64,000 bases of DNA from Vicinamibacteria bacterium (GTDB lineage: Bacteria; Acidobacteriota; Vicinamibacteria; Fen-336). This document shows positions 26,735 through 42,804 of the stretch, piece after piece. Below the pieces are notes generated by a model. That model was given only the letters and a program-made list of their open reading frames with translations. It made no database searches and was not told where the DNA came from. Position 1 is the stretch's first letter. The number at the start of each line of letters is the position of its first letter. The DNA lies in assembly GCA_035570235.1 (NCBI GenBank), contig DATMML010000073.1, positions 1-64,000 of the forward strand, read 5' to 3'. Position numbers and translations under genes: made by a program.

Positions 26735-27136
26735 ATGAAGAAGAAAATCCTGATCGTGGACGACGAGGACGATATCCGCCATTTTCTGGAGCTCGTGCTG
26801 CGACAAAGCGGCTACGAAGTGTATGCGGCGGGGGGGGGCGAGGAGTGCCTGGCCCGGGCCGGCCAGTTGCGCCCGGACCTGATCCTGCTCGACATCATGA
26901 TGCCCGTCATAGATGGCTGGGAGGTGCTGCGCCAGCTCAAGGGGCGGGCCGACACCGCTCCCCTCCCCGTGGCCATCCTCTCCGCGCGCACCGAAGCCAA
27001 GGACCGGGCGCGCGGGATGGGGGCGGGGGCGGTGGACTACATCGGCAAGCCCTTTGCCCTCCACGAGCTCTTGAAGAGGATCGAGACCATCTTCAAGTCG
27101 GTGGGCGACGGGGCCAAGGTCGGCGGAGATGCCTAG
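26735..27136 (+). CDS. Single-domain response regulator (CheY-like)
   Basis: 133 residues forming one receiver domain: acidic pair in ILIVDDEDDIRHF, phosphoacceptor D53 in LILLDIMMP, Ser/Thr in VAILSARTEAK and Lys in DYIGKPFALHEL. No output domain follows. Its last 8 bases overlap the EAL gene, so it probably controls that protein. There is no histidine kinase in the window. A TATGAT box lies at 26693-26698; the ATG has no clear SD. Confidence 0.92.
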   Translation: MKKKILIVDDEDDIRHFLELVLRQSGYEVYAAGGGEECLARAGQLRPDLILLDIMMPVIDGWEVLRQLKGRADTAPLPVAILSARTEAKDRARGMGAGAVDYIGKPFALHELLKRIETIFKSVGDGAKVGGDA

Positions 27137-28370
27137 GTCGATCGTGGAGCCCTTCCCCCCCTACCAGGACCGCCTCCCGGAGCTGCAGAAAGAGCTCACG
27201 GAGCGGGGCAGCCTGGGCTTGCTGGTCCTAGACGCCTCTGCCCTCGCCGCCATCGAGGACCAGTACGGCACCGAGGCCTACGAGGAGGTGCGTCAGCGGG
27301 TCTTCAAGATCCTCGAAGAGCAACGGGGCAAGGACTATCGGGACGGCGATATTCTGACCACCGACCGGCCTAGGGGGCTGCGCTTCCTGTTCTTTCTGGA
27401 GCGCAAGCGACGCCGGGACGTGCCTTTTTCCATCTCCGACCTGAAGGCCGCCCGCGGCCGGTTGCTCGCCTCCCTCCTTCCCAACCTGTCCCGGGCCTCC
27501 TTTCCGTACTTCAAGACCCCCCCCCGCCTGGAGGTCGGCTGCGGAATCGCCGTCCACAACCCCCTGCTGCACCCGGACCGCGTCGTGCGGCGTGCTCTCC
27601 GGGAGGCGCTCGACCTCGCCGCCCACGAGCGGAAGAGCAGCAGCCTCCAGGTGCTGGAGCGCCTGCACGACATCATCCTGCGCGAACGGGTGGTGACGGC
27701 CTACCAGCCGATCCTCAGGATCAAGGAGGGCACCGTGCTGGGCTTCGAGGCCCTCTCCCGCGGGCCCCGGGGGACGGGCCTCGAGACCGCGGACGCCCTC
27801 TTCGCGGCCGCCACCTCCCATTGCCTGCTGGTGGAGCTGGACCGCCTTTGCCGGCGGTGCGCCCTCCTCGCCTCGGGCCGGATACCCTCCAGCGCTAAGA
27901 TCTTTATCAACACCCTCCCCGCCACCATGCGCGACCCGCAGTTCCGGGGAAAGCCCCTGATCGACTTCCTGGACAAGGCCCAGGTCGCACCGAACCGGAT
28001 CGTCATCGAGATCACGGAGAAGCTGGTCATCGAGAACTACGCCCTGTTCCGCGAGACCATGGCTTACTTCACGGATCTCGGCATGTCGTTTGCGGTCGAC
28101 GACGTGGGGGCGGGGTACTCCGGCCTGGAGTCCATCGCCAAGCTCAAGCCGACCTATCTCAAGATCGACACCGCGCTCGTGCGGGAGGTGCACGTGAGCG
28201 TGGTCAACCGCGCGATGTGCAAGGCCATCATCTCCTTAGGCAACAGCGTCGGGGCCACCGTCATTGCAGAGGGCATCCAATCTGAGGAAGAAACACAGGC
28301 CCTGAAGGCCATGGGGGTGGACTACGGGCAGGGATACTACCTGGCCCGACCGGACCCCGGCAACGAATGA
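27129..28370 (+). CDS. EAL-domain c-di-GMP phosphodiesterase with degenerate GGDEF-like N-terminus
   Basis: 413 residues. Residues 1-185 resemble a diguanylate cyclase fold that has lost the GGDEF signature. The EAL domain (about 190-410) keeps the catalytic residues: EAL in LGFEALSRGP, N in FINTLP, E in VIEITEK, the DD pair in FAVDDVGAGYSGL, K in LKPTYLKID, E in VIAEGIQSEEE and Q in GQGYYLARP. It should hydrolyse c-di-GMP to pGpG. It is translationally coupled with the upstream receiver protein and faces the MshEN protein, giving a compact c-di-GMP locus. Confidence 0.9.
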   Translation: MPRSIVEPFPPYQDRLPELQKELTERGSLGLLVLDASALAAIEDQYGTEAYEEVRQRVFKILEEQRGKDYRDGDILTTDRPRGLRFLFFLERKRRRDVPFSISDLKAARGRLLASLLPNLSRASFPYFKTPPRLEVGCGIAVHNPLLHPDRVVRRALREALDLAAHERKSSSLQVLERLHDIILRERVVTAYQPILRIKEGTVLGFEALSRGPRGTGLETADALFAAATSHCLLVELDRLCRRCALLASGRIPSSAKIFINTLPATMRDPQFRGKPLIDFLDKAQVAPNRIVIEITEKLVIENYALFRETMAYFTDLGMSFAVDDVGAGYSGLESIAKLKPTYLKIDTALVREVHVSVVNRAMCKAIISLGNSVGATVIAEGIQSEEETQALKAMGVDYGQGYYLARPDPGNE

Positions 28371-28559: not shown

Positions 28560-29123
28560 GTGTTCAAGATCGCGGTCGACGAGAAGACCTACCTGCAGCT
28601 CCTCGAGGAGCACCACGCGGAGGAGCTCTTCGCCCGCGTTGAGGAGAACCGGCGTTACCTAAGGACCTGGCTCCCCTGGCTCGATCGCAACTCGACCGTC
28701 GAACACACGCGGGCTTTCATCCGGGCGAGCCTCGAGCAGTTTGCGAGCCGCAACGGTTTTTCCTGCGGGCTGTGGCACGAGGGAGCCCTCGCCGGGGCGG
28801 TCGGGCTTCACGCCGTCGACTGGGCGAACCGGAAGAGCGGGATCGGCTACTGGGTCGGGGAGTCCTACCAGGGACGCGGCCTTATCAGCCGGGCCTGCTC
28901 CCGCCTCTTGGATCACCTCTTCGGCGAGCTCGGACTGAACTGCGTGGAGATCGCGTGTGCCCCCGGGAACCGGAGGAGCTGTGCCATCCCCGAGAGGCTG
29001 GGCTTCACGCGGGAAGGCGTGCTCCGGAAGCGGGAGTGGCTCTACGACCACTTCGAGGACCACGTCGTCTACAGCATGCTGGCCGAGGAGTGGCCGGCGC
29101 GGCGCACCCCCTCTAAGGACTAA
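28560..29123 (+). CDS. RimJ/RimL-type GNAT acetyltransferase
   Basis: 187 residues from a GTG with GGGAGG 9 bases upstream. It has the RimJ/RimL family pattern: RRYLRTWLPWLDR, IGYWVGESYQGRGLISRACSRLLDHLF (acetyl-CoA loop Q-G-R-G), then CVEIACAPGNRRSCAIPERLGFTREGVLR. Family members acetylate ribosomal-protein N-termini or small amines such as spermidine; the target is unknown. The end overlaps the stop of the convergent FHA gene by three bases. Confidence 0.88.
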   Translation: MFKIAVDEKTYLQLLEEHHAEELFARVEENRRYLRTWLPWLDRNSTVEHTRAFIRASLEQFASRNGFSCGLWHEGALAGAVGLHAVDWANRKSGIGYWVGESYQGRGLISRACSRLLDHLFGELGLNCVEIACAPGNRRSCAIPERLGFTREGVLRKREWLYDHFEDHVVYSMLAEEWPARRTPSKD

Positions 29124-29443
29124 ACTCCGCCCGCCACCGGATCCGGGCCCGCCGCGGTCAGGAACCAGCACCGCGCTCGCCCGAACCGCACTTCGTCCCC
29201 ATGCCGCAGCTGGCGCTCCCTCACCACTTCCCCGTTGACCCGCGTAAGGTTGGTCGATCCCAGGTCCAGGACGAAGAAACCCGCCCCGCGGCGCTCCACG
29301 CGCGCGTGCGCGCGCGAGACCAGCGGCTCGTCGACGCAAATGTCCGCCGTCTCGTCGCGGCCCACGAGCATGACGTCGGCCTCGAGGGGAAAGTCGACCC
29401 GGGACCCGTCGCGCCGCTCCCAGACCAACCGGGGCGCGCTCAA
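29120..29443 (-). CDS. FHA-domain protein (phosphothreonine reader)
   Basis: 107 residues consisting of one FHA domain: VMLVGRDETADICV, then SRAHARVERRGAGFFVLDLGSTNLTRVNG, containing the phosphopeptide-binding G-R, S-x-x-H and N-G residues. It is the last gene of the operon that also encodes a Ser/Thr kinase and a PP2C phosphatase, so it probably reads that kinase's phosphorylation state. The TTG start overlaps the preceding stop (TTGA). Confidence 0.85.
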   Translation of the reverse strand: MSAPRLVWERRDGSRVDFPLEADVMLVGRDETADICVDEPLVSRAHARVERRGAGFFVLDLGSTNLTRVNGEVVRERQLRHGDEVRFGRARCWFLTAAGPDPVAGGV

Positions 29444-31656
29444 GGCCCGGTGAGCCCGCCCCGGCGCGCGGCCAGCGATGCCACCCCCGGCCCGTCATTG
29501 TTGATGAGGGTCGCCTCCTTGAAGGCGGCGGCCGCGCGGTAGGCCTCCAGGGCCTGGGGCTTGTAGTTGAGCCGCTCCAAGGCCACCCCGAGGTAGTAGA
29601 GGGCCGTTCCCTGGGAGAGGCCGGGACGCTGCGGCAGCTCCGCCTTGGCCTTGGACAAGTACTCGTGGGCGGCGGCAAAGTCCTGGAAATGCATGGCGCA
29701 AAGGCCCAGGTTGAGCCGCGCGAATGCGGCCTCCTCCGTCCCCGGGTAACCTTCCACCACCTGCCGCAGGTCCATCATTACTTTGTTGTACAGAAGGTTG
29801 GGATCGAAGAGGGGGATCTCCTGGGCGGTCTGGTCCAGGGTCAGGTCCGCGGTGTGCGTGCCGCCCGCTCCCCTCAGTTGGAGCGAGAGTTTCTCTTTTG
29901 GCTTCTTCTGCTCCAGCAGGGCCAGAAGGTCGGCCGTACGCTTCACAGGCTTGCCCTCCGCCGCGTAGACCACCTCCCCCACCTGCACGCCCGCCCGGGC
30001 GGCCGGGCCCCCGGGCACGACGCGCAGGATGGGCACGCCCTCGTGCAAGAGCGTGTCGACGGTGATGGCGCCGCTCCAGGGGCGGTAACTGGTGATCCTC
30101 TGGTCGACCTTGGCGATGACCCGCGCATAGGAGGCCGACTCCGCAAAGGTGACGTCCAGGGCCTCGGCCTGCGTGTTACCCGCAGCCAAGAAGTGCAGGA
30201 CGGCGGTACGCTGGAGCCTCTCCTCCGGCAACTCCGCCACCAGAAAGCCCTGGACCTCCAGGGTCGTGGCCAGCCTCTCCGTCACCTTGCGCACGAGGTC
30301 AGGGTCGGTACCCCCCGTCACCAGGGCGCGGGGGGTGATCTTCTCCTGCTCGAGGATGCGGTCCACGATCTCGCGGGGGGCGGGAATGAAGTTGAGGGTG
30401 GTGATCTTGCCCAAGTTCTCGCGGATCTTCTCGTCGGCGTCGACCAGGTTCCGCTCGCCGGCGGAGCTGTCGGCCACCACGCCCAGAAAGGCGAGGGTGG
30501 GGCGGATCGGGCAGTCCAGGCTGACCGCCTCATCCTTGCCGAGCACGATCTCCTTGACGAACTTCCCGGAGGCGTGCTTGACCTCGATCCGGCGCCGACC
30601 CGAGCAGACGCCCTCCAGCTCCGCCGGGGTCACGCCCTTGGCCTCGCCGTCCAGGAAGATCTTGGCCCCCGGGGGGTCCGAGGTCAGGCGCAGCGAGGCC
30701 AGCGACTCCTCCATGCGCACGGGTTCCGCGTCGTAGTCCTGGGCCAAGGGCGTGTCGAGGGTGCGGCGCACCGTCTCGTGGCAGCGCTTCCGAAGCTCGA
30801 TGCTGTGGTTTCCCAAGGAGAGGTTGCCAACCTCGACGCGGGCGGAGGCCCGCGCGGGGTCCAGGCCCTTGGTCCGGGTCGTTTCTATAAGGTCGGGGGC
30901 GAGGGTACCCGCAGTGGTGGCGCGGAGTTCCCCGTCCACCCAGATCTCCACCCCCGCGGGCTCGGTGATGAAGTAGGTGCTGGCTAGGGTTCGGGTCAGC
31001 TCGACCTGCAGGGCCTCGGTGGCCCGGGGCCCGATGCCCAGGGTGCGGGTCTCCGTCCGGTAGCCCTCCTTGGCGATTTCCACCGTGTAGTCTCCGGCCA
31101 GTACCTCCAGGGGGAAGAAGTCTGTGAGGCCCAGCTCGAGCATGCTCTCGCCGCCCCCCGTCAGCCTTACCTTGGCCCCCGCCGGCTTGGAGGAGACGGC
31201 CAAGTAGCCCACCAGCCCCTTCTTCACGGAGGCGAACAGGTCCGCGATCTTGGGCGAGACCTTCTCCCGGCTCAGTGTGTAGGAGGGGTTGATTTGGATG
31301 AGGAGTCGGAAGTTCTCGGAGGCTTTCTCCTGCAGGCCGATGTTGAAGTAAGCACGGCCCCGGTACTCGTAGGCCTGGATCAGGATATCCCGGCCCCGGG
31401 CGGACAGCGGTCCCTGCCGCCGCAGCCCCTCTAGACGGCCGATGACCTCGTCGAAGAGCACGATGGAGCGGCTCTGCTGGGGCCCGTCGAACTCCACGAT
31501 GGCCCGCGCCAGCTGGTCCTGAGCGGACTGGATCTCCCTCTGCGTGGCCTCGGGACCGGGGGGGGCAGCCCCGGTCTGGGCCAGCCCCGCCCGGCTGAGG
31601 GCGATAAGGGCGAGCGCGATCGCTCCCGGATGTCCGCGTCCCCTCCGTCGCCTCAT
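29440..31656 (-). CDS. Secreted PEGA/PDZ/TPR protein
   Basis: 738 residues. A signal peptide (to about residue 26) is followed by a TPR-like helical part (AYEYRGRAYFNIGLQEKASENFRLLI). Several PEGA-type beta modules come next (VSSKPAGAKVRL, ITEPAGVEIWVDG, LTSDPPGAKIFLDGEAKG). A middle region of unknown type precedes a PDZ domain (PILRVVPGGPAARAGVQVGEVVYAAEGKPV), and more TPR helices close the protein. PEGA modules usually sit on the outer face of the membrane, and the PDZ could bind peptide C-termini. With the neighbouring PEGA kinase it may form an envelope complex (inference). Confidence 0.82.
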   Translation of the reverse strand: MRRRRGRGHPGAIALALIALSRAGLAQTGAAPPGPEATQREIQSAQDQLARAIVEFDGPQQSRSIVLFDEVIGRLEGLRRQGPLSARGRDILIQAYEYRGRAYFNIGLQEKASENFRLLIQINPSYTLSREKVSPKIADLFASVKKGLVGYLAVSSKPAGAKVRLTGGGESMLELGLTDFFPLEVLAGDYTVEIAKEGYRTETRTLGIGPRATEALQVELTRTLASTYFITEPAGVEIWVDGELRATTAGTLAPDLIETTRTKGLDPARASARVEVGNLSLGNHSIELRKRCHETVRRTLDTPLAQDYDAEPVRMEESLASLRLTSDPPGAKIFLDGEAKGVTPAELEGVCSGRRRIEVKHASGKFVKEIVLGKDEAVSLDCPIRPTLAFLGVVADSSAGERNLVDADEKIRENLGKITTLNFIPAPREIVDRILEQEKITPRALVTGGTDPDLVRKVTERLATTLEVQGFLVAELPEERLQRTAVLHFLAAGNTQAEALDVTFAESASYARVIAKVDQRITSYRPWSGAITVDTLLHEGVPILRVVPGGPAARAGVQVGEVVYAAEGKPVKRTADLLALLEQKKPKEKLSLQLRGAGGTHTADLTLDQTAQEIPLFDPNLLYNKVMMDLRQVVEGYPGTEEAAFARLNLGLCAMHFQDFAAAHEYLSKAKAELPQRPGLSQGTALYYLGVALERLNYKPQALEAYRAAAAFKEATLINNDGPGVASLAARRGGLTGP

Positions 31657-31681
31657 GGTCTCACCTCGAAAACCGCTGCTT

Positions 31682-33160
31682 TTAGCGGTAGCGCAGGACC
31701 TTCTCCGCCCGCTCGTCCCAGACGAGGACGGCGCCCGTGGGATCCAGGGTTAGGGCCCGCGGCTTCTTAAGTTCCGGCCCCGTGAGGCCGGCCAAGAGCT
31801 GGCCCGAGGGGGAAAAGATCTGGACCGCCCCTTCCTCGTCCGCCACGTAGGTGTTCCGGAAAGGATCCACCGCCACGTCCACGGGCCGGCGGAGGCCTGC
31901 GGGACCCACCGTGCGCAGGAGCCGGCCGGTCTCGTCGAAGACGCGGATCGTCTTTTCCTCGCGGTCGAGAAGGACGATGCCCCCCTCCCCGTCCACGAAC
32001 ATCCGCGAGACCACGCGCTCTTTCGCGTCCTTCTCTGGGAAGAGGCCCTGGTATTCGAACTTGCCGTTATAACGGTAGACCCTCTTCCGCTTCTCGTCCG
32101 AAACGAGAACGCTGCCCCCGGGGGTGATGGTGGCGGCCAGGATCCTGTCGAGCGCCTCCGGAATCCCCGGCTTGTCGGAGGGGATGGCGTAGGACTTCAG
32201 GTCTTTGGGCCCGATGCGCACGGCCAGTCGAGCGGCCACGACGATCTCTCCGCGCGGAGAGAGGGAGAGGCTGCGCAGGTCCTCTCCGGGGAGGCCAGGG
32301 CCCGCCTTGCCTCCGGGGTCGATGGGCACGGCGGTTTTTGTCTTGTCGGACGCAATCCAGAGGGTGCCCGTGGGCGTCATGAGGACGGCCCGCACGTCCT
32401 TCAGGAGGTCGCCCGAGCCCACCGCGTAGCCGGCGTCCACCGTGAACGCGGGCTTGGCGAAGCCGTAGAGGCGATAGAGAGCGGTGATGCGCTCCAGCGC
32501 CCGGGGCGCCCACTCGCTCTCGGGAAAACGATTACGGACCTGCTGGAACTCCTCCATGGCCGAGAGGGCATCGCCCTTCAGGGCCAGGCAGTGTCCGACC
32601 TGGAACTGGGCCGCGGCCGCGGCCTCGCTGCTCGGGTATTCGAGGGAGACCCGGCGGCTCACGTCGACCGCCTCCGACAGCCGACCCGCCTTGCGGTGAA
32701 CGAGTCCCGAGGCGTAGAGGGCGCGCGAGACCCACTCCGTGCTCCGAGGGTAGAGGTTCTGCACGCGCGTGAACTGGGCGAGGGCGTCGTCCAGCTCCGC
32801 GGCGCTAGCGGCGCGGCTCATGGTCAGGTGCCCGAGCCAGTAGTAGGCACCAGGGGCGGCGTCGCTCTGGGGAAACTGCTTTGCGACCTGGTCGAATGAG
32901 GTGCGCGCCTTGTCGGGGTCTCCTTCCACCTCTAATCGATAGCGGCCGATCTCCAGCAGGGCCTGGCCCACGGCCTCGGCGCGGGGGAAGCTGTTGACGA
33001 TGATGTTGAAGTTGTCCAGGGCCTGCTTGAGCTTGCCCTGGGCCCAGTAGGCCCGGCCGTCCTCCAGCAGACGCCGCGCCTGCTGGTCCGGAGATTCTTG
33101 GGGGTGGGCGGGGGCCGGAATTGCCACCAGGGCGACGGCCAGGATCCAGCGCCGGGACAA
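31682..33160 (-). CDS. Secreted TPR / NHL-repeat beta-propeller protein
   Basis: 492 residues. After a signal peptide (to about residue 20), residues 30-235 form TPR repeats (RAYWAQGKLKQALDNFNIIVNSFP, then YYWLGHLTMSRA and FQVGHCLALKGDALSAMEEF). From about 245 to the end there are NHL-like beta-propeller blades (GEIVVAARLAVRI, GGIVLLDREEKTIRVFDETGRLLRTVG, RNTYVADEEGAVQIFSPSGQLL). It is likely a periplasmic scaffold. The start is TTG, with AGGA upstream, 3 bases after the kinase stop. Confidence 0.82.
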   Translation of the reverse strand: MSRRWILAVALVAIPAPAHPQESPDQQARRLLEDGRAYWAQGKLKQALDNFNIIVNSFPRAEAVGQALLEIGRYRLEVEGDPDKARTSFDQVAKQFPQSDAAPGAYYWLGHLTMSRAASAAELDDALAQFTRVQNLYPRSTEWVSRALYASGLVHRKAGRLSEAVDVSRRVSLEYPSSEAAAAAQFQVGHCLALKGDALSAMEEFQQVRNRFPESEWAPRALERITALYRLYGFAKPAFTVDAGYAVGSGDLLKDVRAVLMTPTGTLWIASDKTKTAVPIDPGGKAGPGLPGEDLRSLSLSPRGEIVVAARLAVRIGPKDLKSYAIPSDKPGIPEALDRILAATITPGGSVLVSDEKRKRVYRYNGKFEYQGLFPEKDAKERVVSRMFVDGEGGIVLLDREEKTIRVFDETGRLLRTVGPAGLRRPVDVAVDPFRNTYVADEEGAVQIFSPSGQLLAGLTGPELKKPRALTLDPTGAVLVWDERAEKVLRYR

Positions 33161-33163
33161 AGC

Positions 33164-35266
33164 CTATTCCTTTCGGCCGGTGACGAAAGCGGCCCCGCCA
33201 GGGACGACCTCGGCGGTCTCCTGCCTCTTCGTCCCGTCCGCCCACCGGAAAGAGACGGCGTGGACCCCCGCCGCCGCCGCCTTGTCCAGGATGGGGGGGT
33301 AGTCCACGAAGGCACCGTCGATGAAGACCTGACAATTGTCGGGGTTGGCGCGGATGCTGATCTTGCCGAGGCCCGGCGCCTCCACCACCGCCTGACCGCC
33401 CGCTCCCACCGTCACCGCGACGTCGGTTCGAAGGAAATAAGGACTCGAGACCAGGGTCAGGACCTGCCGGCCCGCGGGCAGCGAGACCCGCGGCGCCACC
33501 TGCTCGCGCGCCAGCGGCTTCCCCCGCCAGAGGACGTCCAGGGGGTAGGTCGAGGCCACCGTGACCGTGCCCAGGGGGCCCACGGGCTCCAGCTTCGTCC
33601 GCACGTCCGTGGGCACCTGGCCCGGGATGAGACGCACCTCCTGCGGCGCGTAGCCGTCGAGGACGATGTTGAGGCGGTGCTCCAGGCTGGGATCGAAGGG
33701 CACATCGATGGGCGTGGTTCCCGCGAGCCTTTGGCCGTCCAGGGCCACAAAGGCGCCCGGGGGATCGCTCATCACGGGCAGGGCGACCGAGGCCGCGGCC
33801 AGGGCGACAGAGACGGCCTCCCCCGCGGGCAGCGGCAGCTTCACGGTGCGGACCTCGTCCTTGTGACCCTCCTTGCGGAAGGTCAGGACCAATCGCGGGG
33901 GAAGGGGCGGCGAGAGCACCAGCTCCCCGTTGGTCTGCACCCCCGTCTCCTTCCCATCCAGGAGCACCGCGGCCCCCACCGGCTGGGAACGCACGGGGAT
34001 GTGGACGGCGGCCGACGGCGAACGGCTAGCCACCAAGGCCAAGACCACGGCCGCCGTGACCGCCACCCCCAAGAGGGCTCCCCACAAGAGCCCCCGCCCC
34101 TTCCCCCCCGGGGGGGGGACCTCGGCGGGTTGGACGGTGGTGGGGGGGAGCAGAGTCTCGGGCGCGCGGCGAGTAGCCGGCGCGTGAAAGGTGGTATCCA
34201 GCTCCGGGAAATCGTCGGGCTCGGGGGCGGGGGGGTGCGCGCGACGCTGGAGGTCACGGTTGGCCGTGCGCAAGGCACGGCGGACTTCCACCGAGTGGGG
34301 GCTCTCCTCCTTGAGCTCGCGCAGCCGCCGCAGGCTCTCGTCGACACCGCCTTCCTTCAAGAGGCGGCGCGCCGCCTTCACCGCCTCCTGGGCGTCGCCG
34401 GAGCGAGGCACCCCTCGCAGCGTGCGCGAGTAAGACTCCAAGACGTCGGCCAGATCGTCGGCCAGGCCGCCCGCCGAGGGGTAGCGCCGGTCGGGGTCCT
34501 TGGCCAGAGCGCGGTCCAGGACCTCCTGCAGGCGGGGGGTCAGCCCCCCGATCTCCGTGTTCAGAGGAGGCGGAGGATCGTGCACGATCTTGTAAAGCAC
34601 CTCCGTGGCCCCCTCCCCCGTGAAGGGTCGCCGGCCGGCCAGGAGCTCGTAGAGGATCACCCCCAGCGAGAAGACGTCGCTGCGACCATCCAAGGGCTTG
34701 CCGCGTACCTGCTCGGGGCTCATGTAATGGACGGTACCCACCATCATCCCCGCCTTGGTGAGCTGGGTCCCCCCCAGCTTGGCGATCCCGAAGTCCATGA
34801 TCTTGGCGGTGCCGTCGTCGAGAAGCCGGATGTTGCTGGGCTTGATGTCGCGGTGGATGATCCGGTGCTCGTGGGCGTAGGCCAGCCCCCGGCAGACCTG
34901 GATCACGATATTCAGCTGCTCCGGCAGGAGCAGGGTCTCCCCCGAGCGCAGAAGGGCCTCGAGGTCGACCCCGGGCAGGAGCTCCATGGCGATGAAGGAC
35001 ATCCCGCGGTCCGCGCCCAGCTCGAAGACGGTCACGATGTTGGGATGCTGTAGCTTGGCCGCGGCCTTGGCCTCGACCTCGAAGCGCTTCCGGCTCTCCT
35101 CGTCGAGGGACCCCTCTAGGGTCAGGGTCTTGACCGCCACCTCGCGCTCCAGGGTCTCGTCCAGGCACCGGTAGACCATCCCCATGCCCCCCCGGCCGAT
35201 GCGGCTGATCACCCGGTACCTGCCGATGCGTCGACGCGAGCGCAGCCCCGCCTGGTCTGGGAGCAC
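33164..35266 (-). CDS. Membrane Ser/Thr protein kinase with extracytoplasmic PEGA domains
   Basis: 700 residues. The kinase domain (15-270) has the glycine loop GRGGMGMVY, K46 in VAVKTL, D140 in HRDIKPSN, DFG at 158-160 and SPEQ in place of APE. A TPR-like and Pro-rich linker contains Thr pairs (LDTTF, PTTV) suited to FHA recognition. One membrane helix (about 393-415) leads to three PEGA-like modules outside (RSQPVGAAVLLDG, MSDPPGAFVALDG, RANPDNCQVFIDG). It is thus a receptor kinase that could sense cell-wall or periplasmic ligands. The GTG start lies 3 bases after the phosphatase stop. Confidence 0.92.
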   Translation of the reverse strand: MLPDQAGLRSRRRIGRYRVISRIGRGGMGMVYRCLDETLEREVAVKTLTLEGSLDEESRKRFEVEAKAAAKLQHPNIVTVFELGADRGMSFIAMELLPGVDLEALLRSGETLLLPEQLNIVIQVCRGLAYAHEHRIIHRDIKPSNIRLLDDGTAKIMDFGIAKLGGTQLTKAGMMVGTVHYMSPEQVRGKPLDGRSDVFSLGVILYELLAGRRPFTGEGATEVLYKIVHDPPPPLNTEIGGLTPRLQEVLDRALAKDPDRRYPSAGGLADDLADVLESYSRTLRGVPRSGDAQEAVKAARRLLKEGGVDESLRRLRELKEESPHSVEVRRALRTANRDLQRRAHPPAPEPDDFPELDTTFHAPATRRAPETLLPPTTVQPAEVPPPGGKGRGLLWGALLGVAVTAAVVLALVASRSPSAAVHIPVRSQPVGAAVLLDGKETGVQTNGELVLSPPLPPRLVLTFRKEGHKDEVRTVKLPLPAGEAVSVALAAASVALPVMSDPPGAFVALDGQRLAGTTPIDVPFDPSLEHRLNIVLDGYAPQEVRLIPGQVPTDVRTKLEPVGPLGTVTVASTYPLDVLWRGKPLAREQVAPRVSLPAGRQVLTLVSSPYFLRTDVAVTVGAGGQAVVEAPGLGKISIRANPDNCQVFIDGAFVDYPPILDKAAAAGVHAVSFRWADGTKRQETAEVVPGGAAFVTGRKE

Positions 35267-35269
35267 GGG

Positions 35270-36034
35270 CTATTCCTGGAACTGCAAGAGGACCACGGTG
35301 ATGTTGTCCTCACCCCCGTGGGCATTGGCCTCCGCCACGAGGTCCTTGGCCGCCTTCTCGATGTCGCCCCCCGCGCTCCCCAGGATCCGGGCGATGTCGT
35401 CGTCGGAGACCATGGTGGTGAGCCCATCCGAGCAGAGGAGCAGGATCTCCCCCGATTTCATCTTCCGGGTCTGCATGTCCACCAGCAGGTCGGCCTTTCC
35501 CCCCAGGGCTCGGGTGACCACATTGCGCAGCGGGTGCCCCCGGGCCTGGTCGGCGGAGATGACCCCGCTCTGGATCTGCTCGTTGACCCAGGAGTGGTCG
35601 CTCGTGAGTTGGGTGAAGGCTCCCTCGCTGAAGAGGTAGATGCGGCTGTCCCCCACGTGCCCGATGTTGGCGGCGTCACCGTCCACGAGCACGGCGGCCA
35701 CGGTGGTGGCCATCCCCTCGTACTCGGTCTTTTCCTTCGTGGTCTCCAGTACCTTCCGGTTGGCGTGCCTTATCGCGGTCTTGAGCCGGTTGCCATCGTA
35801 GGAGATGTTCTCGTCCAGGCCGAAGGGCCAGGTGATCTCCTCGTCCCCGCTGGTCAGGCACACGAACTCGTTGATGGAGTCGACGGCGACCTTGGAGGCC
35901 ACCTCCCCCGCGGCGTGGCCCCCCATCCCGTCCGCCACCACGAAGAGCTTCTGCTCGGGGTTCAAGAAGAGGGCGTCCTCGTTGCCCTTGCGCTTGCGCC
36001 CCACGTCGGTGACGGCCTGGTAGACGATCTTCAT
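35270..36034 (-). CDS. PP2C-family Ser/Thr phosphatase (Stp-like)
   Basis: 254 residues from ATG 36034. It has the PP2C motifs KRKGNEDALFL, FVVADGMGGHAAGEVAS (metal Asp), NIGHVGDSRIYLF, LLCSDGLTTMV and the final GGEDNITVVLL. It removes phosphate from Ser/Thr and would reverse the action of the kinase encoded immediately downstream. It is cytoplasmic, with no membrane helix. Kinase and phosphatase are separated by only 3 bases, the usual bacterial PknB/Stp arrangement. Confidence 0.93.
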   Translation of the reverse strand: MKIVYQAVTDVGRKRKGNEDALFLNPEQKLFVVADGMGGHAAGEVASKVAVDSINEFVCLTSGDEEITWPFGLDENISYDGNRLKTAIRHANRKVLETTKEKTEYEGMATTVAAVLVDGDAANIGHVGDSRIYLFSEGAFTQLTSDHSWVNEQIQSGVISADQARGHPLRNVVTRALGGKADLLVDMQTRKMKSGEILLLCSDGLTTMVSDDDIARILGSAGGDIEKAAKDLVAEANAHGGEDNITVVLLQFQE

Positions 36035-36041
36035 CGGGCGG

Positions 36042-36644
36042 TCAGGAGCGATGGAGGCCAAGTTCCCCCGCAATCTTCTGCACCCGGGGATCCCGGGGGG
36101 CCAGGCGGAGGGCGGTCTCCACCGATTTCTGCGCGCGCCGGGTCAGGCCCTGATGGTGGAGCAGGGCGGCCAGGTCCACGAAGAAGGCCGCGTTGGAGGG
36201 AGAGAGCTGGGTGGCCTTCTCCATCGCCTGAATGGCCTCCCGCATGGACGCGGAGTGTCGGCTCAGGGCCCGACCCAGGGCGTGATGGTAGCGGGCCTCG
36301 CCCGGCATATGGTGCACGGCCGTGCGCAGCAGGGTGACCGCGTCCGCGTGTTGTCCGGCCTCCAGCATCTTCGCTGCCCGCTCGAAAGCGTCCTTGGCCA
36401 TCTCCACCGGACCCACGGGGTGGGGGCGTTCCCGCTCGGCATCGTACTCCCTTCGGCTATTCTCGTTGAAAAGCGTGTTGAAGGCCGCGGTCAGGTCCTT
36501 GAAGAAGGATTGGGCCCGCTCCTTCTCTGTGGGATCCGAGAAGCGGTCCGGGTGCCGCTCCTTGGCCAGTTGCATATAAGCACGGCGGATCTCGGCGGGG
36601 ACCGCCGTCGAGGACACGCCGAGGATCTGGTAGTAGTCGGTCAT
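36042..36644 (-). CDS. J-domain protein with C-terminal TPR
   Basis: 200 residues. The J domain (1-70) has YYQILGVSSTAVPAEIRRAY and the HPD motif (AKERHPDRFSD), so it should stimulate a DnaK ATPase. The second half forms TPR helices (AKMLEAGQHADAVTLLR, HALGRALSRHSASMREAIQAMEKA). It lacks the Gly/Phe and zinc regions of true DnaJ. It is probably a specialised co-chaperone for the operon's products. It sits 7 bases before the phosphatase gene. Confidence 0.88.
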   Translation of the reverse strand: MTDYYQILGVSSTAVPAEIRRAYMQLAKERHPDRFSDPTEKERAQSFFKDLTAAFNTLFNENSRREYDAERERPHPVGPVEMAKDAFERAAKMLEAGQHADAVTLLRTAVHHMPGEARYHHALGRALSRHSASMREAIQAMEKATQLSPSNAAFFVDLAALLHHQGLTRRAQKSVETALRLAPRDPRVQKIAGELGLHRS

Positions 36645-36651
36645 GACCCGC

Positions 36652-37734
36652 TCAGTGCTTCCCCCCGGGCTGCTCGGCGTTCTTGATGAAGCGCTGGGCG
36701 TGCTTGCGGATCGCATCCGGAACGTTCCGGTCGAAAGCCAGGCTCTTGATGTCTCGGGGGTTCAAACGCGTCACCATGCCCAGGGAGATAGCCAGGGGGG
36801 TGCGCGGGTTCCGCACCAGATTCGCGACCACGCTGTACTTCTTGGTCCACTCCCGGTGGCTTCCGATCTGGCGCAGGATCTCGTCGGAGATGTTTTTCAT
36901 GCCCGAAAACGCCTCCACCTCCGACTCCGTCAGCCGCGGGCTGCCCAGCACGGCGGTGGACACGATGCGGTTGGGGTCGCGCACCAGGATGGCCCGATCC
37001 TCGCGGGTTCCTTTGAGGGCGGTGATGACCTTCTCCGCCGTGTTCAGGCGGTAGATCTTCTGGACCGCGCTGACCTTCTCGATATCCTTGCGCTCCTCGT
37101 CCGAGAGGATGCGGACGACCGCCTCGTCCGGGGAAATGGGGGCCTCGGCAACGACGGGTTCGGGCACGGCCGGAGTCGGATGGGGCTCGGGGACGGGCGC
37201 GGCGGGGGGCGGGGGCGCTTCCGCCGGCTGTTGCCCGATGCGGAACGTCTCGCGCAGCTCGCGCAAGCGGCGCCGCTGGTCGTTGTTGAGGCTGGGGTTG
37301 GCTTCCAGGGCTTCGAGCAGAGAGGTGCGGCGCAGGAGGCGGACCTGGTTGATCACGACCAGCTCCGCCAGCTCCTGGGAGAGCGAGCTGGCCAGGGCCT
37401 CCACCGCCTCGTCCGTGAGCGACGTGTTCTGGAGCGCTGCCTCGCGCAGCTCTCGCTCGCTGCGGTAGGTGACCCCCCAGGCCAGGATGGCGGGCGGGGT
37501 CTCGCGGCTCTTGAGGATCGGCAGGAACTCCTCGCGCGGGAACGCGGCCAAGGACGCGCCGGCCGTGTCCCGAATCTCCTTCTCCGCGTCGTGGAGGAGA
37601 TCGGTCAGCAGCTCGAGCACGTCCTCCGGCTTGAGGGGCAGAGCGCCCTGGGCGGCCAAGAGGCGGAGCTCCTTCGGGACCCCGCCCCTGCGAAACTGCT
37701 CGACCAGGGGGTTCGTGACCCGGGCTTCGGACAT
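36652..37734 (-). CDS. Armadillo/HEAT-like helical repeat protein
   Basis: 360 residues, nearly all helical, no membrane segment or signal. Repeated units have a NP-x-T/S-P-L-x-x-S/A-L look (LVRNPRTPLAISLGMVTRLNPRDIKSLAFDRNVPDAIRK). A Pro/Ala/Glu-rich linker (residues about 170-205) separates two helical parts. The same module recurs in the gene at 38601, so the two are paralogues. This resembles DUF2336-like or HEAT-type scaffolds, function unknown. It lies between the RodZ-like and J-domain genes of the operon with 6-7 base gaps. Confidence 0.7.
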   Translation of the reverse strand: MSEARVTNPLVEQFRRGGVPKELRLLAAQGALPLKPEDVLELLTDLLHDAEKEIRDTAGASLAAFPREEFLPILKSRETPPAILAWGVTYRSERELREAALQNTSLTDEAVEALASSLSQELAELVVINQVRLLRRTSLLEALEANPSLNNDQRRRLRELRETFRIGQQPAEAPPPPAAPVPEPHPTPAVPEPVVAEAPISPDEAVVRILSDEERKDIEKVSAVQKIYRLNTAEKVITALKGTREDRAILVRDPNRIVSTAVLGSPRLTESEVEAFSGMKNISDEILRQIGSHREWTKKYSVVANLVRNPRTPLAISLGMVTRLNPRDIKSLAFDRNVPDAIRKHAQRFIKNAEQPGGKH

Positions 37735-37740
37735 GGACCC

Positions 37741-38499
37741 TCAGCTGCTGTGGGACGCGTGTCCGCCCGGCGCGTCCTCCACGAGAGAGGGCAGGTTCTT
37801 CCTCGTGATCACGATGTTTCGCCGCACCTCGCCGCTCTTGCCGAGCGGCACTCCGGGGCGGTCATTCACGCGGAAGGCCAGGCCGCCCGCGTTGCCGACG
37901 CTGAGCACGAGCTCACCGTGGGCCTCCAGGGTCTCCGACTCCCCTTGGCTCATGACGCGGTCGATCACGGTCTGGCCGTCCGCCTGCACCTGCACCCAGC
38001 AGTTCTGCTGGGCGGTCAGGGTGAGCACCAGGCTCTCCGGCGGGGGGCCGGGAGGGCCGGGGTCGGCGGGCGGAGGGTAAACGCGGTCCGCGGGCAGGAC
38101 GACGCCGGTGGCGGCGGCGGGGAGCGGGGAGACCCGCCCGCCGTGGTCGGATGCGCCCTTGCGCAGGGAGAGGGCGGCGGCCGCAACCGCCAGCGCGCCC
38201 ACAAAGAGAAGGCCGCGCGGGGGCGTCCGACGGCGGGGCGGCGGAGGTTTCTTCTCCACCGCCTGGTCCCCATGCACGTAGAGGAAGTCGGCCACCAGGC
38301 GTTCCTGGTCCAGTCCTAGGTGACGCGCGTATTGCCGCACGAAGGCGCGGGGGAAGAGACCACCGGGGAGCACATCGACGCGGTCCTGCTCGAGGGCCTG
38401 CAGGAAACGCACGCTGATCTTGGTGGCGTCGGCGATCTCCCGAAGGCTGATCCCGCGAAGCTCCCGCTCTCTACGAAGGTTCTCGCCGAACGAAGCCAT
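37741..38499 (-). CDS. RodZ-like membrane protein (HTH_25, DUF4115)
   Basis: 252 residues. An N-terminal XRE-type helix-turn-helix (FGENLRRERELRGISLREIADATKISVRFLQALE) is followed by a basic linker, one weakly hydrophobic membrane helix (RGLLFVGALAVAAAALSL) and a C-terminal beta domain (LTLTAQQNCWVQVQADG, DUF4115). RodZ couples MreB to the cell wall machinery and fixes cell shape. As the first gene of the operon, behind a clear promoter, it links the signalling module to envelope growth (inference). Confidence 0.85.
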   Translation of the reverse strand: MASFGENLRRERELRGISLREIADATKISVRFLQALEQDRVDVLPGGLFPRAFVRQYARHLGLDQERLVADFLYVHGDQAVEKKPPPPRRRTPPRGLLFVGALAVAAAALSLRKGASDHGGRVSPLPAAATGVVLPADRVYPPPADPGPPGPPPESLVLTLTAQQNCWVQVQADGQTVIDRVMSQGESETLEAHGELVLSVGNAGGLAFRVNDRPGVPLGKSGEVRRNIVITRKNLPSLVEDAPGGHASHSS

Positions 38500-38567
38500 A
38501 TCTGGAGCCCGCCGCTCCCTCTGCTCCCCAAGGCTTCCGAAAAAAGGTGATCGCGAAGCGCGTGCGG

Positions 38568-38597
38568 ATTCTACGCGAGCCCGGTGAAGGCTGTCAA
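38568..38597 (-). promoter_or_regulatory. Sigma-70 promoter of the eight-gene signalling operon
   Basis: On the minus strand, TTGACA (38597 to 38592), an 18-base spacer, then TAGAAT (38573 to 38568). Transcription would begin near 38560, giving a leader of about 60 bases to the RodZ-like ATG. Downstream genes to 29120 have gaps of 25 bases or less. Confidence 0.75.
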
Positions 38598-38600
38598 ATC

Positions 38601-39359
38601 CTATGTGGCTGAGCCCCTGAGGGTTCGGCCACTATCGGGGGGTTGCGGAGTCTCCGCCACGCGCAGCGCCGCCGCTTGGACCAGGGGTCGCAAACCGGGG
38701 GTCTCGGCCACGCGCAGGAGGTCTCTTCGGGTGAGGGAACTGAGCTGGAGGAGCGCCAGGGGGAGGGGCGTGCGGGGCTGCAAGGCGAGGGCCAGCCGGA
38801 CGCCGTAGCACTCCGACCAGCGCGGGGAGGAGACCGCGGCCTCGATCAGGGCGCCGGAAACCTCGGGCTGCCGAAGCGCGAGCAGGAAGTCCTCCTCCCT
38901 CAGCCGGGGGTTGATGAGGGCCGCGCGGGCCACCTTGGGCCCCGGGTCGGAAAGCAAGGGGCGGAGGACGGCGGGGGTCGCGATCTTGGCTAGCGTCACC
39001 CGTTCGCCCAGCCGGAGGTCGGGGAGCAGGTCCTTCAGAATGGCCTCGCTGCGCACCCGCACCGCGCCCGGCACGTGGGGGCTGGCGGCCACGTCCGCAA
39101 GGTCGCGCCAATAGAGCGAGGGCAAGAGCCGGAGCGAGAGGGCGCGGGGCGCGTTCGGGTTCAACACCAGCTTGCCGAGAACGTGGGCACGCTCGGACCA
39201 AGGGGGGGTCGTGCCGACGAGTTCGAGGAACCGAACGGGCAGGGCCCGTCGGAGCAGGCTGATGAGCACGCTGTCCTCGGGATCGTGGCGGGTGAGCGCC
39301 TCTCGCAGCCGCTCCCCGTGCGGCCCGGCCTGGAGGATCTCCGCGTGGAGGGCCTCCAT
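38601..39359 (-). CDS. Armadillo/HEAT-like protein, paralogue of the 36652 gene
   Basis: 252 residues from ATG 39359; a GTG at 39389 is an alternative with GGGGGG 8 bases upstream. The module WSERAHVLGKLVLNPNAPRALSLRLLPSLYWRDLADVAASPHVPGAVR aligns with the repeat unit of the protein encoded at 36652. No membrane segment. Function unknown; a helical scaffold is the best guess. Its stop lies right at the -35 of the downstream operon promoter, so that promoter separates it from the operon. Confidence 0.65.
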   Translation of the reverse strand: MEALHAEILQAGPHGERLREALTRHDPEDSVLISLLRRALPVRFLELVGTTPPWSERAHVLGKLVLNPNAPRALSLRLLPSLYWRDLADVAASPHVPGAVRVRSEAILKDLLPDLRLGERVTLAKIATPAVLRPLLSDPGPKVARAALINPRLREEDFLLALRQPEVSGALIEAAVSSPRWSECYGVRLALALQPRTPLPLALLQLSSLTRRDLLRVAETPGLRPLVQAAALRVAETPQPPDSGRTLRGSAT

Positions 39360-39428
39360 GGCACCCTCGGGGGCCGGCTTGGCCCTCACGGTCGCGCCCC
39401 CCTACTCCCCGGCCCTCCTCTGCCGGGC

Positions 39429-39696: not shown

Positions 39697-42600
39697 CTAG
39701 CGCAGGGCCGCCCGCAGGTCGCGGACCTTGGTGGCCACGTCGCGGAAGTTGGCGTCCTGGCCGTAGAGGTCGGTGAAGACGTGCAGGGCCTTGTCCGTAT
39801 CCCCGGCCGCCTCCAGCGCGCTGGCGAGATCGTAGCGGAGACCTTGGTATTCCTCCTCGCTCCGGTCAGGGGCGGTCAGGCCTTTCTCAAACCACTTCAC
39901 CGCCAGCTTGGCCATGCCCTTCTCCAGAAAGCAGATGCCGAGCATGCTGCTGCATTCAAGGAGGCGGTTCTCGTCCTTGGCCGCCAGCTGGAACTCGGCG
40001 ATGGCCTCGTCGATGAGCCCCATCTCCTTGTAGGCGATGCCGAGGTTGTAGCGGGTGTCGTAGTCCTCCTTGCCCAGCTGCTTGTCGACGCCCTTCTTGA
40101 ACTCCTTGAAGATGTCGGCGAGGCCGGCGTCGCCGAGGTCCGTCCCCGAGGCCGGGACCGGCTCCTCCACCGCCGACTGGGCGCCGAACAGGCCTCCGAG
40201 CTCCGCCCCCAGGTCCAGTCCGCCCTCCTCCGCCGGCGGAGGGGCCGGCTCGGGTTCGTCGAGACCGAGCTCGCCCAGCGGGTCGTCGAGCAACGAATGC
40301 GGCCGGACCTCCGCCCGCAGCGGCGGCTCGTCCACCAGATCGGCGGCTTCGTCGGGAGGCGGAGCGCTGGGGACCCGCGGTCGAGACGGCGGCGGCGGAA
40401 TTTTAGCCTCGTCGAGGCCCAGCTCCGCCATCTTGCGCGCGATCGCGGGATGACCGGAATACCGTTCCCCGATCTCGCTCAGGGCCTCTTTGGCATCGTC
40501 GACGAAGCCCAGGGAGATGTAGGACTCGACCTCGTCCAGGACCTTCTGCAGCTCGGCCGGGATCCCGCCGCTGGGCGGGGGGGCGGGCGGCGCCTTCGGG
40601 GGCGGGGCCGGCTTCTTCGCCGTCGGCGGCGGCATCGGCAGGGCGGCGGGCTTGGGGACGATCCTTGAGGGCTTGGGAGGAGGAGCGACCGGCCGGGGAG
40701 GGGGCGCGACGGGCCGGGGGGCAGCGGCGACCGGTGGCGGAGGCACGGGGGCGGGACGCGGCGGCTCAGGGGCGGGGCGCGCCGGGGCTTTCTTGGCCGG
40801 CGCCGGGGGGGGAGGCTCCAGCAACGGCGTCTCCTCCTCGATGCCCAGCGAAATCTCCTCTTCGAGCTCCGCCCCCCCCTCCACGTCGACCGGAACGTCG
40901 ATCTCCGTCGCGGGCTCCGCGGCTTGGGAAGGCTCCTCCTCCAAGAAATGGCCGGTCAACTCGCCCTCCGCCCCCGACTCCATCCCGAGGTCCAGAGCCT
41001 GGAGATCAGGCTCGGGGACTTGATCCAGAGCCGGCGCGTCCAGCCCGCCCTCTTCCACTTCCAGCGGGATCTCTTCTTCCACCGGATCCGGGGGCGGAGG
41101 GGCGGGGGCGGGAGCCGGCTCCTTCCGCGGCGCGGCTTTGGGGGCGGGAGGGGCGGCGGCGGGGGCGGCGGCGGCCGCGGGGGCGGGGGCCGGCGGCGGC
41201 GGAGAGAGCTGGCGTGCCTCGGCCGCGTGGGTCTCCGCAGCCGCCGCATCCCCTTTCAGGCGGAAGATCTCGGCCAGGAGCCGGGATTGCTCGGCCGCCT
41301 TCTCGTTCTCGCCCTTCTCCTTGAAGACGTCGCGCAGCTCCTGTCGAGCCTCGACGTTGTCCGCGAAACGGACGATCACCGCCTCGAGCTGGTCGCGGGC
41401 CTTGTCCACGAGACCGTATTTCCGGAACACCCTCCCCTCGGCCAGGTGCTCGTTGATGAACTCCTGGTCCTCTTCGCTGAGAGGCCCGGAGAGCTGGATC
41501 GCGGCGCGGGGGCCGGACGCGGGGGCGGCCGGGGCCGGCGCGCTCGGGGCGGAGGTCGCCTCGGGGCCCGCGAGCTCGAAGTCCTCTTCCACGACCGGGG
41601 CGGGGGCGGCGGGGGCAGTCGGCCGGCCGCCCTTCTTGGAGCGCACGAACTCCAGCTTGTTCCGGTGCTGCTCGTTCTGGGGCTCGAGCCCCACCAGGAT
41701 CTCCAGGACGGAAGCCGCCTGGTCCATCTGCCCCTGGTTGATGTAGGCCTCGACGATCTGCGAATAGGTGCCCGGGACCGCGCTGTCCTTGCGCAGCTGG
41801 CGGTAGACCTCGACGAGCTTGAGCAGGCTCTTGACGTGGGCGGGGTTCCTCTGGACGATCTGCTGGAGCAGGCTGGCCGCGCGCTCCCCTTCCTTGCGCT
41901 CCAAGAGCCGGTCCACGACCGGAAGCAGCTGCTCGTAGGCCCGATCGAACTGCCCTTGCATGAGGCACATGCGCCCCATGAGGGTGCGCGCCTCCTGATC
42001 CTGGGGATCCTGCTGCAGGAGTCGGCGGAAGATGCCGTCCGCCTCCTCCACGCGCCGAGCCCCCAGATAGGCCTCGCCCAGACGGAGCGCCACATCCTTG
42101 TCCTTCGGAGACTGCCGGCTGGCCTCCTCCAGGAAATGGATGGCCTTGTCATAGTTCTTCTGAACGAGGTGTATGCGGGCCAGCTCCACCCGGAGGCGGC
42201 TGCTCTTGGGGTCGATCTTCAGGCCCTTCTCCAGGACCTGCAGCGCCTCCGCCAGGTGGCCCTTCTTGTTCAACTCGTCGGCGATGGCGATGTGTTCCTC
42301 GACGGCCTTGGTCGCGTTCCCGTCGCGAGTGTAGAGGTCGGCCAGCTTGCTGCGGACCTTGAGGTCGGCGGGGTCGATCTCCGCCATCTTCTTCAGGGCG
42401 TCGCCCGCCTCCCGGACCCGCCCGCGCTTGATGTACTCGTCGAGGACGATCTGGTACTGGCCCTTGGCCTCCACCATGAGGCCCTGCTTCGCGTAGAGGT
42501 CGGCGAGGTTGAGGTACGGCTCGAGGGCGGAGGCGTCCAGCTTGTTGATCTGCTTCCAGAGGGCGATGGCCTTCAGGAGGAAGCCGTCCTGGGCCAGGTA

Positions 42601-42804
42601 GTTGGCCACCTTCGCGTATTCGCTCGCCGCCTCCTTGACCTTGTTGAGCCGGGTGTAAAGGTCCCCGATCTTCTTGACCGTGTTCCAGTCGCGCGGGTTG
42701 TCGTCGACGAGCTGGCGATAGAGGGTGATGGCCTTGTCGAAACGCCCGGCCTTCTCCTCCTTCTCCGCGTCCTGCTTGACCTTGACGGGGTTGATCTTGG
42801 CCAC
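39697..42804 (-). CDS. Large cytoplasmic TPR protein with Pro/Ala-rich linkers
   Basis: 1035 residues and no signal peptide. The first 390 residues are TPR repeats (KEEKAGRFDKAITLYRQLVDDNP, KVKEAASEYAKVANYLAQDG, KNYDKAIHFLEEASRQSP). More helical repeats follow (EHLAEGRVFRKYGLVDKARDQLEAV), interrupted by long Pro/Ala/Glu linkers (about 395-435 and 540-790). The C-terminal 130 residues are again TPR (NLGIAYKEMGLIDEAIAEFQLAA). Such proteins are scaffolds; several Myxococcus and Acidobacteriota TPR proteins of this layout relate to motility or secretion, but I cannot assign a partner. GTG start behind AGGTAGGGCGGGC. Confidence 0.8.
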   Translation of the reverse strand: MAKINPVKVKQDAEKEEKAGRFDKAITLYRQLVDDNPRDWNTVKKIGDLYTRLNKVKEAASEYAKVANYLAQDGFLLKAIALWKQINKLDASALEPYLNLADLYAKQGLMVEAKGQYQIVLDEYIKRGRVREAGDALKKMAEIDPADLKVRSKLADLYTRDGNATKAVEEHIAIADELNKKGHLAEALQVLEKGLKIDPKSSRLRVELARIHLVQKNYDKAIHFLEEASRQSPKDKDVALRLGEAYLGARRVEEADGIFRRLLQQDPQDQEARTLMGRMCLMQGQFDRAYEQLLPVVDRLLERKEGERAASLLQQIVQRNPAHVKSLLKLVEVYRQLRKDSAVPGTYSQIVEAYINQGQMDQAASVLEILVGLEPQNEQHRNKLEFVRSKKGGRPTAPAAPAPVVEEDFELAGPEATSAPSAPAPAAPASGPRAAIQLSGPLSEEDQEFINEHLAEGRVFRKYGLVDKARDQLEAVIVRFADNVEARQELRDVFKEKGENEKAAEQSRLLAEIFRLKGDAAAAETHAAEARQLSPPPPAPAPAAAAAPAAAPPAPKAAPRKEPAPAPAPPPPDPVEEEIPLEVEEGGLDAPALDQVPEPDLQALDLGMESGAEGELTGHFLEEEPSQAAEPATEIDVPVDVEGGAELEEEISLGIEEETPLLEPPPPAPAKKAPARPAPEPPRPAPVPPPPVAAAPRPVAPPPRPVAPPPKPSRIVPKPAALPMPPPTAKKPAPPPKAPPAPPPSGGIPAELQKVLDEVESYISLGFVDDAKEALSEIGERYSGHPAIARKMAELGLDEAKIPPPPSRPRVPSAPPPDEAADLVDEPPLRAEVRPHSLLDDPLGELGLDEPEPAPPPAEEGGLDLGAELGGLFGAQSAVEEPVPASGTDLGDAGLADIFKEFKKGVDKQLGKEDYDTRYNLGIAYKEMGLIDEAIAEFQLAAKDENRLLECSSMLGICFLEKGMAKLAVKWFEKGLTAPDRSEEEYQGLRYDLASALEAAGDTDKALHVFTDLYGQDANFRDVATKVRDLRAALR

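Follow-up and report, generated by a model that had tools for sequence, protein, structure and literature searches.

Why a RodZ-like gene should lie in a tight cluster with a receptor kinase, a phosphatase, a phosphothreonine reader and two apparently exported proteins is the question raised by a locus in a 64,000-nucleotide stretch of a Vicinamibacteria genome (assembly GCA_035570235.1, contig DATMML010000073.1, positions 1 to 64,000; the whole stretch is referred to here as the window). An earlier note, made from the letters of the window, had described eight genes, and all eight open reading frames were found where it had placed them, on the minus strand from 38499 to 29120. Pfam and NCBIfam profiles were applied to the window proteins (source genome of 5.72 Mb in 138 contigs), and comparison with related loci showed the cluster to be modular in origin. 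It is most likely a fusion of module A (TPR-rodZ-HEAT, beside trmD), most likely a resident and older cell-shape locus, with module B (PP2C, PEGA kinase, TPR/NHL, PEGA/LpoB-like/PDZ/TPR and FHA), which most likely serves in envelope sensing and phospho-signalling and whose core of three genes (kinase and exported pair) is spread through the Acidobacteriota. The features of the locus are as follows.

38568-38597, minus: near-consensus sigma-70-like promoter (TTGACA-N18-TAGAAT), gene 1 following after about 70 bases
37741-38499, minus: gene 1, RodZ-like, with HTH_25, a probable transmembrane helix (about residues 94-112) and RodZ_C
36652-37734, minus: gene 2, HEAT-repeat protein with a conserved C-terminal region (about residues 226-355)
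36042-36644, minus: gene 3, J-domain (HPD intact) and TPR, likely start 36644
35270-36034, minus: gene 4, PP2C phosphatase of the Stp1/IreP family, likely start 36034
33164-35266, minus: gene 5, Ser/Thr kinase with linker, one transmembrane segment and a PEGA-containing outer part
34187-34210, minus: gene 5 linker motif, FPELDTTF in the window, just inside the membrane, a candidate phosphothreonine dock for FHA
34028-34093, minus: gene 5 transmembrane segment
31682-33160, minus: gene 6, TPR (YbgF/CpoB-like) and NHL, N-terminus signal-peptide-like by eye
29440-31656, minus: gene 7, TPR-PEGA-PEGA-LpoB/TolB-N-like-PDZ-TPR, N-terminus signal-peptide-like by eye
30076-30510, minus: gene 7 middle domain, residues 383-527, predicted LpoB/GNA1162/PelC/TolB-N-like fold
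29821-30087, minus: gene 7 PDZ domain, residues 524-612, HtrA/DegS type
29120-29443, minus: gene 8, with one FHA domain that retains its phosphothreonine-binding residues
38601-39389, minus: upstream paralogue of the gene 2 C-terminal region
39697-42804, minus: upstream large TPR protein
44005-44793: trmD, upstream of the cluster

With genes 3 and 4 starting at their likely positions, all intergenic gaps came to 25 bases or less, bearing out the earlier description of eight closely spaced same-strand genes behind one promoter. The protein identities proposed at that time were also backed by Pfam, which returned HTH_25 and RodZ_C, DnaJ and TPR, PP2C, Pkinase and two PEGA, TPR and NHL, two PEGA with PDZ and TPR, and FHA. 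For gene 2, described then as an armadillo-like scaffold, the sole Pfam match, to HEAT_2, stayed below threshold (E 1.2e-4), but the family profile matched designed HEAT (alphaRep) proteins; HEAT alignment A3 held 23 of 28 sequences, with L049, L059, L063, L065 and L066 left out.

The conservation of this gene order, which the earlier note had proposed as a check, was established by reading loci in related genomes (loci and genomes carry L- and G-numbers, and f1, f2, f3, f4 and f10 are family labels). Genes 1 to 8 occurred in the same order and on the same strand in 20 genomes (14 of f1, three of f2 and three of f10, referred to here as merged), complete on one contig in 16 and cut by contig ends in four (G006, G011, G034 and G040), and no genome contradicted it. 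A fourth f10 genome with a gene 7 fragment (G041) lies outside these 20, and genes with split frames (L044 gene 6; L066 genes 2 and 6) or unread stretches (L054 gene 2; L066 gene 5) were counted as present. Kinase identity to the window's copy ranged from 36 to 62% across the merged genomes, and in f10 (G030, G034) an extra FHA match lay between gene 7 and the gene-8-like FHA. The gene 2 paralogue kept its position in 13 of 14 f1 loci and in two f10 loci, and was not at this upstream place in three f2 loci or L066; trmD was also found upstream in eight f1 loci and one f10 locus. Gene 2 itself was present in 28 of 40 genomes searched (the window's own included), the 12 without it being ten of f3 and two of f4. 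Both the cluster itself and its conservation are secure. Chance clustering in a kinase-rich genome was rejected as an explanation, since 20 genomes share the order and the core recurs at 37 of 56 further loci; three f1 genomes that were searched each held at least 41-48 kinase-profile matches.

The promoter was the sole sigma-70-like site found between 27000 and 40500 (mean of 0.4 in shuffles). When the best sigma-70-like site in the 120 bases before each gene was scored out of 12, the site before gene 1 reached at least 10 in 14 of 18 merged loci and at least 9 in 16 of 18, and before genes 2 to 8 a score of 9 was reached in none of the 14-19 merged loci. Against base shuffles, the site before gene 1 gave P ≤0.005 in 11 of 12 loci (0.045 in L046) and in four of six further loci (0.045 in L053, 0.075 in L051). 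Conservation of a site only before gene 1 supports one transcript and agrees with the earlier claim of a single promoter, and the eight genes are, on this sequence evidence, most likely one transcription unit. Some read-through from upstream may occur, as the -35 box lies three bases from the stop of the same-strand gene at 38601-39389, and promoters of other types may also be present. At unmerged rodZ loci a site scoring at least 9 was seen before rodZ in five of eight, so the promoter apparently predates the fusion.

Each module was found without the other. At eight loci from other families of the class (L056-L063), RodZ and HEAT were the only ones of the eight genes present, accompanied by the upstream TPR gene at seven and by trmD at all eight. 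The N-terminal part of the window's upstream TPR protein scored 235 bits against the model of SgmX, a protein of type IV pili formation (cut-off 1800). Gene 7 matches occurred in 98 of 193 class genomes (E 1e-10), many of them single-domain, with at least 59 class genomes above 90 bits among the matches listed; at the level of the phylum, 122 of 396 genomes had a match (E 1e-20). At 56 loci away from RodZ, picked from the better gene 7 matches and not randomly, gene 6 lay upstream of gene 7 in 52, a PEGA kinase in 39 and both in 37. Within the class the kinase was upstream at 15 of 20 such loci, and near the core FHA was present at 15 and PP2C at seven; outside it the kinase was upstream at 24 of 36, with FHA present at only four and PP2C at one. 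It was therefore concluded from these neighbourhoods that the kinase-NHL-PEGA/PDZ trio is a phylum-level unit, and FHA, less often PP2C, is its companion within the class. Linkage of RodZ-HEAT-DnaJ to the core was seen in one clade only, that of f1, f2 and f10. On plasmids, gene 7 had no match and gene 5 none with at least 80% coverage. A scan of 84,980 species with two peptide patterns, an insensitive method that says little about other phyla, returned 20 gene 7 loci, four of them weak and all titled Acidobacteria, Vicinamibacteria or Terriglobia. At L111 and L142, a phylum relative carries three gene 7 homologues within 20 kb of sequence, which suggests tandem expansion.

Family f3 bears on the order of events. 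In the ten f3 genomes searched, MreB was present throughout, gene 2 was not found, and HTH_25 gave no full match (one partial match at the cut-off and one weaker); kinase-profile matches (E 1e-20) numbered one or two per f3 genome, against at least 9-59 in 12 other genomes. Genes 6, 7 and FHA were present at both f3 loci read (L105 and L106), and in L106 the three genes were flanked by trmD upstream and, on the downstream side, by genes for an LD-carboxypeptidase and a Mur ligase. In a gene 7 tree of 74 rows, made by a quick method with Shimodaira-Hasegawa-like approximate likelihood ratio support only, the f3 rows (L105 and L106, on a long branch) stood beside the single f10 row (support 97), inside the merged clade (support 99). 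Because of this position the 15 merged rows need two changes on the tree, which fits one fusion plus loss in f3 without proving it. A fusion at the trmD-rodZ locus, with the RodZ-to-kinase block later lost in f3, would be the simplest story; an ancestral merged state that was lost elsewhere was considered against the same tree as the alternative.

As to the individual proteins, gene 1 exceeded the cut-offs for HTH_25 (77.2 bits, cut-off 24.6) and RodZ_C (64 bits, cut-off 23.9), and its HTH matched structures 4gqm, 3fym and 2wus_R, which we take to be RodZ proteins. The probable transmembrane helix between the two domains appeared as a modest hydropathy peak (1.75, residue 94). Gene 1 gave the sole RodZ_C match found in the genome, which also encodes MreB. 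Its scores stayed below the cut-offs of two NCBIfam RodZ equivalog models, one streptococcal by name (53.8 of 375 bits) and one enterobacterial (24 of 208 bits). By its domains, its probable membrane helix and its single copy, gene 1 is RodZ-like.

The signalling proteins had intact catalytic and binding motifs in nearly all orthologues. Over the merged loci the kinase motifs HRDxKPxN and DFG were kept in 19 of 19 and VAxK in 18 of 19, three PP2C motifs in 19 of 19 and the fourth in 18, and the J-domain HPD in 19 of 19; the FHA motifs GR, SRxHA and NG were found in 14, 12 and 13 of 14, respectively. A separate kinase alignment, A2, took in 18 of 19 sequences, without L049. The phosphatase passed the Stp1/IreP cut-off (NF033484, 260.4 against 230 bits), its metal-ligand motifs being kept in 18-19 of 19 loci. 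The best NCBIfam match of gene 5 was PknB_PASTA_kin, below cut-off (331.4 of 450 bits), and Pfam found no PASTA but PEGA instead, which sets it apart from the PASTA receptor kinases. Its outer part follows one clear transmembrane helix. Given this helix and the signal-peptide-like N-termini of genes 6 and 7, the PEGA parts probably lie outside the membrane, and genes 6 and 7 are probably exported. All 19 merged loci had a linker motif EL...(F/Y), which takes an FPELDATF-like form in f1 and f2; Thr preceded F/Y in 15 of 19, and LDETRFAST-like linker motifs were read in seven other class loci. FHA protein 8 may, by analogy, dock on the linker phosphothreonine, as docking on the phosphorylated kinase linker is reported for PknB-FhaA (PMC12077195).

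Of the exported pair, gene 6 passed the YbgF model with its TPR part (TIGR02795, 103.4 against 90.1 bits), fell short of the full CpoB model (65.8 of 383 bits) and matched NHL at 25 bits (Pfam, cut-off 20). Gene 7 was modelled with AlphaFold2 (whole-protein predicted local distance difference test score, pLDDT, of 87.5; alignment A1, all 14 untruncated copies in that set), and a fold search with the whole protein mainly recovered the HtrA/DegS-like PDZ domain (best Z 15.8, 86 residues, root mean square deviation 1.2). Folding the middle domain alone from 70 sequences gave a pLDDT of 92.4; alignment A4 held 70 of 73, without one copy from L137 and two from L142, and L138 was also excluded. With Foldseek, GNA1162 was its best match (E 2.5e-4), followed by LpoB (E 3.8e-4, probability 1.00, template modelling score 0.47-0.50), PelC and TolB being lower. 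VIA-align gave Z scores of 8.4 for FlgT, 8.0 for CT253, 7.3 for PelC, 7.2 each for LpoB and GNA1162 and 7.0 for TolB. The sequence profile of the middle domain gave only chance-level matches against the PDB (best E 0.017) and recovered none of these proteins. As a new observation, gene 7 is predicted from the models to carry a domain folding like LpoB, PelC and TolB-N, which form one envelope domain group. Unlike those proteins, it would hold this domain between PEGA and PDZ within a larger protein, and the N-terminal region of the window copy has no cysteine for a lipobox (a few relatives have one). A link to the wall or the outer membrane is favoured because in E. coli LpoB is the activator of a wall synthase that CpoB coordinates with the Tol system.

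The best reading of these results, to which we give a probability of roughly 0.5, is that the cluster couples envelope sensing to phospho-control of growth, its sensing-and-elongation mechanism being a reasoned proposal. Genes 6 and 7 would form a periplasmic assembly that touches the wall-synthesis or outer-membrane machinery by way of the CpoB-like TPR and the LpoB-like domain, and its PDZ domain would read C-terminal peptides that are exposed. PEGA domains of this assembly might contact those of kinase 5, so that occupancy would alter kinase clustering and the kinase would autophosphorylate its own FPELDATF-like linker and phosphorylate elongation partners, for example RodZ or the HEAT scaffold. 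In S. thermophilus, a pknB mutant is reported to lose a RodZ-like phosphopeptide, on Tyr and possibly indirectly (PMC6593474). FHA protein 8 would then dock on the linker and recruit a target, the Stp1-type PP2C would reset the system, and the J-protein might handle the scaffold or the target; every contact, the substrates and the signal are what we infer. More tentatively, and a little short of an even chance in our view, the Acidobacteriota may share an undescribed form of envelope surveillance in which a PEGA kinase reads a periplasmic complex of NHL propeller and LpoB-fold/PDZ protein; in one lineage this system would have been joined directly to the rodZ operon, letting the kinase control elongation by the state of wall synthesis or of outer-membrane proteins.

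A number of findings weigh against this reading. RodZ and HEAT genes were found near the core at none of the 56 other loci, so the main target may be something other than RodZ, and FHA and PP2C were scarce near the core outside the class. The window's genome encodes a second HTH_25 protein, without a RodZ_C match. The linker motif varies, with Ala (L050) or Ser (L051) in place of Thr and ELTELY/ELTEIY in f10, and VIA-align Z scores of 7-8.4 are borderline for an LpoB-like fold, with unrelated folds appearing from 6.5 down. Gene 7 was kept in all ten f3 genomes searched, and it had no upstream kinase match at 17 of the 56 loci, 15 of which had gene 6 (contig ends truncate L101, L102 and L105, and a kinase fragment is present in L097). 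As f3 keeps gene 7 with few kinases and without a full RodZ match, and 15 of the 56 loci have the pair without an upstream kinase match, genes 6 and 7 probably have a role that does not depend on the kinase. Of the earlier claim that a complete module couples an envelope assembly to RodZ-dependent growth, gene order, motifs and promoter therefore stand, but the RodZ link was seen only in f1, f2 and f10; since the core elsewhere stands apart from RodZ, the coupling is plausible only for that lineage, from gene linkage.

The loci without an upstream kinase match speak for a somewhat unlikely alternative, namely that genes 6 and 7 are an envelope structural or assembly factor (LpoB/CpoB/TolB-like) with its own job, which the kinase, phosphatase and FHA protein tune while RodZ is in the operon only so that growth genes are expressed together. 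The neighbours of genes 6-7-FHA in L106, the one or two kinase matches per f3 genome and the predicted LpoB-like domain would agree with it, but a PEGA kinase upstream at 39 of 56 loci exceeds bystander linkage. It is unlikely that the kinase module simply landed behind the rodZ promoter and is functionally unconnected to RodZ: confinement of the link to three families and the apparently older promoter are as expected from this, but the order was kept in all 20 genomes despite kinase divergence to 36% identity, and f3 is jointly without RodZ, HEAT and most kinases, with genes 6-7-FHA next to trmD in L106, the only f3 locus long enough to show it. PppA is the PP2C of the threonine phosphorylation pathway that controls the type VI secretion system (T6SS). 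The PpkA kinase and Fha partner of this pathway are described in the literature (PMC3953482). Control of a T6SS by a PpkA-PppA-Fha-type pathway is highly improbable and was rejected, for although kinase, PP2C and FHA are the same protein classes, no VipA match was found in the window's genome (the single T6SS family searched), the FHA model TagH scored far below cut-off, there were no T6SS genes among the neighbours that could be identified, and the exported scaffold and RodZ partners are unlike that pathway.

Two other described systems resemble the cluster. PASTA kinase and phosphatase pairs include PrkC/PrpC and StkP/PhpP, and PknB carries extracellular repeats. The cluster resembles these pairs in its Stp1/IreP phosphatase and in the nearest model of its kinase, and differs from them in lacking PASTA and in the added PEGA, NHL and PDZ partners. 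Nearest in concept is the actinobacterial pkn cluster (fhaA/fhaB-pstP-rodA-pbpA-pknA-pknB), in which kinases, an antagonist phosphatase and FHA genes lie with elongation genes (PMC3296230). The cluster in the window likewise brings receptor kinase, PP2C and FHA genes together, but in another phylum and with PEGA in place of PASTA, RodZ and HEAT in place of RodA and a penicillin-binding protein (neither RodA nor a class B penicillin-binding protein is among its eight genes), and a J-protein and two exported proteins in addition. Literature searches for the PEGA domain together with FHA and kinase, and for Acidobacteria together with PEGA and threonine kinase, found no paper; those that paired the PEGA domain with NHL or with protein kinase, or Acidobacteria with RodZ and kinase or with Hanks-type, gave few matches, apparently unrelated in the text available. 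The earlier statement that no described system has this set thus holds for the exact set, with the pkn cluster as a close functional parallel; kinase-phosphatase-FHA control linked to a growth gene is of a known kind, and the core across the phylum is apparently undescribed.

Acidobacteria are abundant in soil, and the literature searched held no account of what their kinases read. Here conserved linkage names a kinase, phosphatase, phospho-reader, exported partners and cell-shape gene together, so that the question of the signal and target of a PEGA receptor kinase comes down to a few tests of binding and deletion. In Actinobacteria and Firmicutes, kinases with PASTA sensors are known to control growth; such control may have arisen separately in another phylum from other sensor parts.

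Elsewhere in the window, a second FHA protein (FHA-GAF-adenylate/guanylate cyclase, 54854-56530, minus strand) is followed by a dCache-HAMP-HD protein (53042-54850, minus), and a further Ser/Thr kinase bears WD40 propeller repeats (11328-13364, plus). AT skew rises to 0.29 in the segment 20001-24000, clearly higher than elsewhere in the window, and a reading frame there weakly matches GT87 glycosyltransferases. An EAL-domain protein (27129-28370, plus) is encoded close to where the cluster ends downstream and points towards it, and relatives of it were found there in six other f1 loci.

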